The notes beneath the pieces are model-generated. The model was not told the origin of the DNA and did not search any database. It saw nothing but the letters and a program-made list of their open reading frames with translations. A DNA stretch of 64,000 bases from Candidatus Bathyarchaeota archaeon (GTDB taxonomy: Archaea; Thermoproteota; Bathyarchaeia; Bathyarchaeales; Bathycorpusculaceae), in the NCBI GenBank assembly GCA_026014735.1, contig JAOZHT010000003.1:62001-126000 (forward strand). Reading direction: 5' to 3'. The position numbers were made by a program, and so were the translations under genes. Positions 60,627-63,531 of the stretch are shown in pieces. Within the stretch, counting starts at the first letter, position 1. The number at the start of each line of letters is the position of its first letter.

Positions 60627-60863
60627 CTAGACAGTCCCACTGGATTTAGCGGGCTTTTTGCGGGCTGAGGCATCCCGCAGGTTCTCCACCGGCGAATCCT
60701 CCCCGTAACCCTGGCTTTCTTGGGCTTTCTGCTTATAGCTTTGCTCGGTGACTTTGGCTTTGCCCTCTTTGCTGCTGAGTTCCACGCTGTTGCCCAGCTT
60801 GTAGATGGTTCTGCCCAACCGGCGTTCACCTATGGTTCGTGTGCATTTTCCCATTTTGCTCAC
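60627..60863 (-). CDS. Small basic protein downstream of the injection-system-like hub
   Basis: A 78-residue hydrophilic protein (MGKCTRTIGERRLGRTIYKL, SVELSSKEGKAKVTEQSYKQ, then a Lys/Ser-rich end AKSSGTV). No family is recognised. The start may be GTG 60863, ATG 60854, or a TTG at 60926 that would overlap the hub gene. It follows that gene directly and may belong to the same mobile unit. Only composition and position support it. Confidence 0.5.
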   Translation of the reverse strand: MSKMGKCTRTIGERRLGRTIYKLGNSVELSSKEGKAKVTEQSYKQKAQESQGYGEDSPVENLRDASARKKPAKSSGTV

Positions 60864-60903
60864 TGCAAATAGTGCTGTTTCTGTGGCATTTAGGCTTTTT
60901 CCG

Positions 60904-61569
60904 TCAAACCCGCGCTTTTGCCTCAAAAAGGGTCATGAACCCAAAGTTGTTATCCCAGCTGTGGATGGCTTTTTCGACGAGGTAGGTTAGGTTAAACTTT
61001 TGTCCCAGTCCAGTTAACGCAACAGCGGCGCTGTCTCTTACTTCGGGTAACCCTATGGATTCGGCTACGCATCGCAGGCTAGCTGCCGTCGCCTTAAGGG
61101 CGGGTACTCTGCTTATAGCGGTTGTTTTAGGCTGGTTCTCTGCGGCGGCTATGGCAGTGAAGTTCAGCAGGGTACTGCCAAAGGCAAGGGTGCAAACAGG
61201 AACCGCGTTAGTTGCCCTGGGGGTCTGCCTAGGATTGGATGCGCCGAGGACTTCTATCTGCGGTCCACGGTCAGCTGAAAAAACCGATTTGACCTCGCTG
61301 ACTTCCCCCTCCATAACCGTTTCAAGAACTGCCCCGTAACCCATTTTCACAAAAACTTTTTGGCCGGGTTCAAATAGCGCCGTGTTTATCCATGCTGACT
61401 GGGGGTCGTTGACGGTGAACCTGAATTTTGGGGCTGATGGGTTCTGCTCCACACTTAGGGTGGATGCTGTGATGCCGTATTTTTGGTGGAGGTCTTCGGA
61501 GTTGACGATGATTTGGTTTTTCGGTGCGTAAAAGTTTGAGTATTTAGCGGTTAAATCAACTTGTGCCAA
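60904..61569 (-). CDS. Compact VgrG/gpD-like spike-hub protein of contractile injection systems
   Basis: A 221-residue protein resembling phage late-control protein D / Pvc8/VgrG hubs. Residues 1-115 match the first beta-barrel: YSNFYAPKNQIIVNSEDLHQ, KFRFTVNDPQSAWINTALFE, EPGQKVFVKMGYGAVLETVM and EGEVSEVKSVFSADRGPQIE. The end (LTGLGQKFNLTYLVEKAIHS, WDNNFGFMTLFEAKARV) matches the last hub strand region. The middle (about 120-185) is far shorter than in usual hubs (350-plus residues), so the gene is either a compact form or internally deleted. No sheath, tube or baseplate genes are nearby, so it is an orphan here. Confidence 0.7.
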   Translation of the reverse strand: MAQVDLTAKYSNFYAPKNQIIVNSEDLHQKYGITASTLSVEQNPSAPKFRFTVNDPQSAWINTALFEPGQKVFVKMGYGAVLETVMEGEVSEVKSVFSADRGPQIEVLGASNPRQTPRATNAVPVCTLAFGSTLLNFTAIAAAENQPKTTAISRVPALKATAASLRCVAESIGLPEVRDSAAVALTGLGQKFNLTYLVEKAIHSWDNNFGFMTLFEAKARV

Positions 61570-61623
61570 TTCAAGTGCCCCTGGCTGCTTATTGATGGGA
61601 CCGTGGGCATTTATTCTTGCTGA

Positions 61624-61833
61624 TTAGGACGATTGCTTTTTGTGTATGACGCCCACGATGCTTTTGATGGGTTCCTGGCAGACCTCGGGTTTCCAGGTGC
61701 AGATGCCCTTGATTATCTCGTCGAGGTAATGTGCCAGCTCATCGCTTGTAACCTCTTTGGCGCAGTCCACCTTGTAGTCTATCTTGCCGTTCCTTCTGCT
61801 GACCCGTATTGTAACTAAATCTTCTTCAGACAT
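61624..61833 (-). CDS. Small acidic protein upstream of the hub
   Basis: A 69-residue protein, SEEDLVTIRVSRRNGKIDYK, VTSDELAHYLDEIIKGICTW, then KSIVGVIHKKQSS. It contains two Cys (VDCAKEV, VCQEP) and a strand-helix pattern. No family is recognised. ATG at 61833; a TATA-like CTTAAATC near 61870 would give an almost leaderless transcript. It reads in the same direction as the hub gene, 54 bases upstream of it, and probably co-transcribed with it. Confidence 0.55.
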   Translation of the reverse strand: MSEEDLVTIRVSRRNGKIDYKVDCAKEVTSDELAHYLDEIIKGICTWKPEVCQEPIKSIVGVIHKKQSS

Positions 61834-62282
61834 AGCAGTCAAGCATCTATCTGGCCGTTTTAGATTTAAGCTTTCGGCTACCGCTCCAGCCTGAATTACG
61901 CCGATGCTGACAGTTGATCACTGCCAAGGGCATGCGTGAGTATCTAGCAACTCAATATACAAGGAAAAATTATTTGTTCACTAATAACATCTATCTTCTT
62001 CATAGTTCAGTTGCCATGTAAGCAGTCGCTATTTCTGTACTAATTTGGGTAAAAATATGTGGTCTTCTGGGTCCAATGTTGAAAAATTGTTTAATAAACG
62101 ATTGGGCATCCTTGGTTTGATGAGGAGGTGCAGCTTAAAAAACGCAATCGCTCGCAGTAAGTCCAAAACGGCTGGTAACAGTTGCCACAGCAATGGGCGC
62201 TATGGCAGCAGCAATGATGACACAAGCAGACCCCAAACCCTCCGCCGGCGACAACGCAGCACCGCTGACACCAAGATCCTAA

Positions 62283-62763: not shown

Positions 62764-63531
62764 TCAGCGTCTGCGCAGTCTAGTCACCGCAACCGCCAGC
62801 GCCAACGCCACCGCTATCACGACTATAGCGATCTCCGCCGTCAAAGCCACGTTGGGGTAAGAGGTTTGATTCACAGCGATGCCTGCCAGCGCCCAAATAA
62901 ACACTAAGCTGAAAGCGATGTCCCGGCGGGTCACGATGACAGCTAAATCAATGATTAACGCCAACGCCAAGACGACGATTGCCCAGGTCTGCATGCTTAA
63001 CCCCAATCCATCCCAACCCGACGCAGTCAAAGTCACCGCGATGTTGGCGATGGTGGCGATTGTTACCCAGCCCAGATAGACGCTAAAGGGCACATGCACA
63101 CAGAGCTTCTCTTTTAAGCTAACGTTGGAGCGTCCGATGTGCAGCCTCAGATAAATTGCAATCAGCGATGCCAGGAAACCAAGGATTACCGCTACTGAGA
63201 TGGATAGCAGCTCGTTTTGCCAGAAAAACAGCCAAACGATGTTAAGTATGCTGGTTAGGATGAAGAGGTAGCTGATTTGTTTTTGGAAGGGCCGATTTTT
63301 TTGGCTTGGCAGCGCCTGATAAACCAGGTAGACCCCGAGCAGCACGTAGATGATGCCCCAGATGGAAAACACGTAGCCCGCGGGGGTGATTAGGGTGGGG
63401 TGTCTGTTGGAGACTTCCGCGGTGGTTTGTCCGCCGATGAGGGTGGTGTTGGATAAGCCGTTAACGATTAGGGTTGCTATGAAAGCGGCTATGTTAGCCC
63501 ACCGTAGCCACCCAGGGGTCTTGTTTTCCAT
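62764..63531 (-). CDS. TspO/MBR-like tryptophan-rich membrane protein
   Basis: A 255-residue membrane protein with seven to eight helices. TPAGYVFSIWGIIYVLLGVY corresponds to the P-x-x-x-F/W-I-W TspO signature, NIVWLFFWQNEL follows, and VPFSVYLGWVTIATIANI resembles the later TspO helix. TspO proteins are small porphyrin/steroid-binding sensors of about 160 residues; this longer version carries extra C-terminal helices ending in a basic TRLRRR tail. Such long TspO-like proteins are annotated as tryptophan-rich sensory proteins. Ligand unknown. ATG at 63531. Confidence 0.78.
   Translation of the reverse strand: MENKTPGWLRWANIAAFIATLIVNGLSNTTLIGGQTTAEVSNRHPTLITPAGYVFSIWGIIYVLLGVYLVYQALPSQKNRPFQKQISYLFILTSILNIVWLFFWQNELLSISVAVILGFLASLIAIYLRLHIGRSNVSLKEKLCVHVPFSVYLGWVTIATIANIAVTLTASGWDGLGLSMQTWAIVVLALALIIDLAVIVTRRDIAFSLVFIWALAGIAVNQTSYPNVALTAEIAIVVIAVALALAVAVTRLRRR

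Follow-up and report, generated by a model that had tools for sequence, protein, structure and literature searches.

The window analyzed here, a 64,000-nucleotide stretch of a contig from a Candidatus Bathyarchaeota archaeon, encodes a 221-aa protein that, judging from profile comparisons, is a homologue of the hubs of contractile injection systems (CIS; gpD/gp27/VgrG). The explanation we favor, and consider fairly probable, is that this is a compact two-barrel hub that belonged to a dispersed set of CIS genes and is now an orphan in its genome (G000), either as a decaying relic or as an exapted ring protein.

A conserved hub gene

The open reading frame named in the preliminary description was found, and its orthologues and codon constraint argue that it is not a chance frame.

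60904..61569, minus strand: compact hub CDS, 221 aa, TTG start, with orthologues, codon-position constraint and hub profile matches

The gene lies in a 99%-complete archaeal MAG that totals 2.9 Mb over 10 contigs. Intact orthologues of equal length are present in G022, of the same genus (41% identity), and in G085, of another genus of the same family (42% identity). Copies of the hub were found in a single archaeal family, three of them intact (G000, G022, G085) and two decayed, that of G009 through a frameshift and stops close to the start together with a short internal deletion, and that of G021 through an internal deletion that fused its N- and C-terminal pieces. Searching 256 genomes from the class and 398 from the phylum with the family alignment gave no further full-length hub, and the same kind of search of genome contigs returned two hub loci that were both already in the set, while a search of the contigs with the single protein returned none. 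Weak profile matches in G011, G347, G382 and G247, which involved ABC transporter, phosphoglycerate-kinase-like or unknown proteins, were dismissed as chance.

In the hub gene, identity is 0.56 at first, 0.63 at second and 0.37 at third codon positions, the last being the background level (saturated), and the G000 and G022 genes differ with a pN of 0.39 and a pS of 0.78. Because the first two positions are kept while the third is at background, and because pN is below pS, the comparison shows purifying selection, and the frame is on this evidence a real conserved protein, selected since its split from the orthologues. The constraint is weaker than that on ftsY (pN/pS 0.5 vs 0.13). The hub has diverged as much inside the genus as between genera, and it lies at differing loci among genomes, with a locus common only to G000 and G022, which together put its vertical inheritance in doubt.

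The NCBIfam model NF033848 (VgrG_rel) matches the window protein with an E-value of 8.9e-7 over residues 129-217, which is the second, split barrel, and both orthologues with E-values of 2.9e-5 and 1.6e-8, so that all three intact copies are recognized by an injection-system hub model. PF05954 (Phage_GPD), the other profile proposed as a check in the preliminary description, matched neither the window protein nor anything else in its genome. We ascribe this failure to a limit of the model because no Pfam model recognized a genuine eCIS hub encoded in a cluster of the same genus either. Single-protein scans with Pfam and PHROG were almost silent for the window copy; the G022 copy matched a PHROG tail family (1.3e-8), a PHROG baseplate-hub family (1.5e-5) and Pfam YQBQ (3.6e-4). 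The family profile, searched against the PDB, found the All3320 CIS hub of Anabaena (5.7e-7), the Algoriphagus CIS hub (5.6e-6) and the VgrG 9rce (6.4e-6) in collinear blocks. As an independent test, CIS contigs were picked by sheath similarity and then scanned with the compact-hub profile (7,933 ORFs), which picked the hub genes lying between the tube, sheath and spike genes of CIS clusters with E-values from 1.3e-25 to 3e-21. The VgrG_rel, PDB and CIS-cluster matches thus agree with the earlier claim that the N- and C-terminal blocks of the protein match hubs.

Anatomy of the compact hub

Aligned with the hub of a CIS cluster (L166) and with T4 gp27, whose tube-like barrels comprise residues 2-111 and residues 207-239 plus 307-368 (PMC3004832), the protein resolves into three blocks.

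61231..61536, minus strand: block 1, approximately residues 12-113 (12-116 in the family profile), first tube-like barrel; aligns with L166 hub residues 17-126, counterpart gp27 residues 2-111
61126..61215, minus strand: block 2, approximately residues 119-148, motif LaFGsTLLNF...AENQ, first part of the second barrel; L166 hub 216-246, gp27 207-239 (bounds approximate)
60916..61104, minus strand: block 3, approximately residues 156-218, motif GLPE...vaLTGLGqKFNltYlVEKaiHS...GF.T.FEA, second part of the second barrel; L166 hub 311-373, gp27 307-368

For the first barrel, the profile blocks match a clustered CIS hub with i-Evalues down to 5.5e-11, and the barrel is also seen in the PDB profile matches; for the second, split barrel, blocks 2 and 3 align, block 3 with an i-Evalue of 3.6e-16. 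The middle of the protein had been described as much shortened, and the alignment bears this out by showing two separate deletions, corresponding to residues ~127-215 and ~247-310 of the L166 hub. Since both fall outside the gp27 barrel bounds, the lost parts correspond to the two domains inserted between and within the barrels. Both inserted domains are missing in all three intact orthologues, and the protein has neither an OB-fold spike domain nor a needle. The compact hub thus appears to be pared to two tube-like β-barrels.

The structure models of the hub were of low confidence (pLDDT 40 and 52), so that the two-barrel fold, and the ring described below, are inferences. When the model of the G085 orthologue (pLDDT 52) was used as a Foldseek query, the 13 best PDB matches were all hubs, with TM-scores of 0.27-0.35; they included 7aef, 7b5h, the R2 pyocin hub and those of Streptomyces CIS, Mu-type systems and T4 (gp27). 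The pseudo-hexameric shape of a hub trimer adapts a threefold spike to a sixfold tube. By analogy, three copies of the compact hub may form a pseudo-hexameric (pseudo-sixfold) ring. Because T4 gp27 reportedly fails to trimerise when its spike gp5 is absent (PMC3004832), ring formation by a hub that has no spike would be informative, and the two-barrel protein shows what a minimal hub might be.

The closest known counterparts are the VgrG-related CIS hubs (NF033848; Algoriphagus 7aef chain q; Anabaena All3320 7b5h; Streptomyces 9gtr), which have the same three collinear two-barrel blocks and share with the compact hub the motif GxPxxxxG...GLGxxFxxxYxVxxxxHS. They are 580-640 aa long, carry two inserted domains and an OB-fold spike and are encoded in clusters, whereas the compact hub has 221 aa, lacks inserts and spike and is solitary. 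T4 gp27 (also Mu gp44, P2 gpD and the R2 pyocin hub) has barrel 1 and the split barrel 2 in the same order, but the compact hub is about 150-160 residues shorter, without a counterpart of gp27 residues 112-206 and 240-306; it has no direct sequence match to gp27, and its genome has no baseplate or tube genes to accompany it. The YqbQ/XkdQ phage tail hubs (PF24032), which match the G022 orthologue weakly over the second barrel, are larger and lie within tail operons, unlike the solitary compact hub.

The genus also has clustered eCIS. That of G001 (L043) encodes a LysM-like protein, a 394-aa hub, a separate Phage_base_V spike, an eCIS_core protein, a sheath and a tube, and similar clusters or parts occur in G027, G015, G019, G020 and G004. 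Complete-looking clusters, with hub and spike separate and an eCIS_core (DUF4157) protein, were seen at L043 (G001 C51), L044 and L050 (G027) and L140 (G004). These eCIS belong to the same class of machine and match the compact hub weakly in the C-terminal barrel. The compact-hub profile reaches an E-value of 0.002 with the eCIS hub of the genus and 1e-25 with other CIS hubs, and both the compact hub and a solitary tube of G007 are nearest to the CIS clusters L156-L171 and not to the eCIS of the genus. Together these comparisons suggest that the compact hub is of a lineage distinct from the clustered eCIS hub, which is full-size, lies within its cluster and is not the source of the compact hub.

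An orphan gene and solitary CIS genes in relatives

The gene was described earlier as an orphan, and this holds for the whole genome as well as for its surroundings, where both flanking genes are core genes.

60627..60854, minus strand: downstream neighbor, 75 aa, core gene of the genus, present whether or not the hub is, outside the system
61624..61842, minus strand: upstream neighbor, 72 aa, core gene of both genus and family, present whether or not the hub is, outside the system

Since these two genes also occur without the hub, they were ruled out as its partners. The interval between them (window 60854-61624, with counterparts at L006, L116 and L115) is a variable slot that holds, depending on the species, the hub, an SRPBCC-like gene with the hub, an SRPBCC-like gene alone or a CBS-like gene; those without the hub are represented by G013 (SRPBCC-like) and G007 (CBS-like). 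Neither phage-like genes nor a spike gene adjoin the hub, and an Rfam search of the region gave no match. A TspO/MBR-family gene lies near the hub (window 62764-63531, minus strand), and a similar-looking protein (L118:4376-5149, minus strand) adjoins a solitary Pvc16 gene of G013; this is probably a coincidence.

Partner searches in G000 took in sheath, tube, Pvc16, gp25 and hub models. Across the whole genome there was no match to PF04984, PF06841 or PF14065, no credible match to PF04965 and none to solitary sheath or tube/Pvc16 queries, and gp25 gave only a chance-level match interrupted by stops. The sheath, tube, Pvc16 and gp25 models do match in relatives and, for most of them, in controls. 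The one nearby match to VgrG_rel residues 371-414 is weak (C3:132080, E 0.22) and belongs to an ORF of 885 aa whose start resembles that of a secreted protein.

Several relatives carry single CIS genes among ordinary genes.

L070:7328-8473 (G085): solitary tail-sheath among housekeeping genes
L051:9922-10995 (G024): solitary tail-sheath among housekeeping genes
L045:10087-11163 (G009): solitary tail-sheath among housekeeping genes
L049:9429-10508 (G013): solitary tail-sheath among housekeeping genes
L046, about 1050-2089 (G021): solitary tail-sheath among housekeeping genes, decayed
L048:9003-10044 (G007, a 3-contig genome): solitary tube with adjacent Pvc16
L117:5286-5762 and L118:5201-5734 (G013): tube and Pvc16 on separate contigs
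L121:5842-6450 (G094): solitary tail-tube (gp19-like) or Pvc16-like gene

The solitary sheaths, 359-381 aa long in G013, G009, G024 and G085, match PF04984 and PF17482 where scanned, and their locus has neighbors (dnaG-like, Nudix, FtsX-like and ABC) that are common to five genomes of two genera; the gene seems to have been passed on vertically and to be strongly constrained by purifying selection. Separate solitary sheaths are present in G007 and in G122. Such tail-tube (gp19-like) and Pvc16-like genes are scattered over several genomes of the class, with further ones at L122, L123, L127 and L128, and solitary Pvc16 genes in G003, G017, G087 and G089; a tube match in G085 (C41) was dismissed as a glycosyltransferase-like ORF. 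By eye, no convincing common motif was seen upstream of the solitary hub, sheath and tube genes.

Among 200 genomes, the hub (in any state) occurs in five, the solitary sheath in six and both in three (hypergeometric 1.5e-4, uncorrected for relatedness). In G085, the intact hub and the solitary sheath are on different contigs, and in G021 decay has affected the hub, the sheath, the tube and Pvc16 alike, with ftsY intact. Sheath, tube and Pvc16 are present in G007 and G013, where no compact hub was detected, whereas G000 and G022 have the hub alone; no genome among those examined has all the solitary parts intact.

Clustered CIS are known in haloarchaea (PMC11566945). The eCIS surveys, which found one archaeal phylum, recognize a system by several neighboring core genes (PMC8213781), a design that overlooks parts standing alone. 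A 321-aa Bathyarchaeota sheath has been modelled, apparently with no comment on its gene context (PMC9230969). No account of CIS parts that stand alone or are dispersed, and none of a two-barrel hub, turned up in the openly available papers searched. The solitary sheath of Bathyarchaeota and the scattered tube, cap and hub raise the question of whether a dispersed CIS assembles or the parts have been recruited singly.

Origin and fate of the orphan hub

The solitary sheath, tube and Pvc16 genes in relatives, their joint decay with the hub in G021 and the co-occurrence of hub and sheath argue for an origin in a dispersed CIS, and the compact hub is probably one part of such a gene set in this archaeal family. 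The gene would then be a gp27/gpD/VgrG-type hub that was reduced to its two tube-like β-barrels, with inserted domains and spike gone, in a CIS whose single genes are scattered over the chromosomes of the family, apart from the eCIS of the genus; three copies would form the pseudo-hexameric ring. In relatives that keep the solitary sheath, such as G085, the hub may still seat the tube and sheath. In G000, the partners have apparently been lost, and the orphaned hub could be either slowly decaying or kept as a ring for another purpose. It had also been suggested that the protein is a compact spike used with structural genes elsewhere. The second half of this suggestion suits some relatives, such as G085 with its separate contigs for hub and sheath, but not G000, in which no structural genes were found, and the protein, lacking an OB fold and a needle, is no spike.

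One possible outcome, which we regard as tentative, is that the gene is purely a relic, all that is left undecayed of a CIS since lost, functionless and disappearing. The decayed hub copies in two relatives, one of them with every other CIS part decaying too, fit this account, as does the failure to find CIS partners in G000. On the other hand, all 221 codons are intact and the motifs conserved in two partner-less genomes, and conservation at the first two codon positions contrasts with saturation at the third; some of this selection may nevertheless date from before the partners were lost.

We hold equally tentatively a broader proposal, namely that the family has a permanently dispersed CIS (two-barrel hub, sheath at the dnaG/Nudix locus, tube and Pvc16 cap) that is inherited or exchanged gene by gene and is unseen by operon-based surveys, with lineages like G000 keeping only a ring-forming hub for a separate role.

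Somewhat less probable is an exapted stand-alone protein, whose two-barrel ring would do a new job in the cell without sheath or tube. The hub is intact in G000 and G022, where no other CIS part was found and where it occupies one slot between core genes, while relatives in the genus retain sheath genes, and the purifying selection between orthologues is consistent with a function. Nevertheless, the gene is rare (three intact copies in the genomes searched, decay in two relatives), its constraint is weak beside that of ftsY, and it has no conserved partner gene besides the core genes. For G000, the 'domesticated hub' suggested in the preliminary description stands as a possible reading alongside a slowly decaying relic.

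It is rather doubtful that the protein is a working hub in G000, either in an injection or tail machine with undetectably divergent genes or in the siphovirus-like tail elements of the same genome, and an injector built around it there is unlikely. The partner searches covered only the models named above, and the genome has at least four siphovirus-like, provirus-like tail-hub genes (C2:824935-825387, at L143; C1:301639; C1:329995; C1:173742), both of which leave some room for such a role. However, the genome is close to complete (99%), and those models do match in relatives and, mostly, in controls. The siphovirus-like elements, moreover, own a large hub: the one that was read encodes 536 aa, matches YQBQ (2.6e-8) and adjoins a tape-measure-like 182-aa gene. 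These elements are likely proviruses or satellites unrelated to the compact hub. VgrG_rel matches in proteins of 530-570 aa were set aside; they were siphovirus-like tail hubs where inspected.

Very improbable is the remaining suggestion of the preliminary description, what is left of an integrated element, taken here as a provirus or mobile element acquired recently: the hub is cleanly present or absent between core genes, with 65 bp between the flanking genes in G013, which lacks it, but no phage genes adjoin it, no relatives of the hub were found in phage records (tblastn) or viral contigs (pattern scans), and an orthologue is found in this slot in a second species of the genus and at a different place in another genus.
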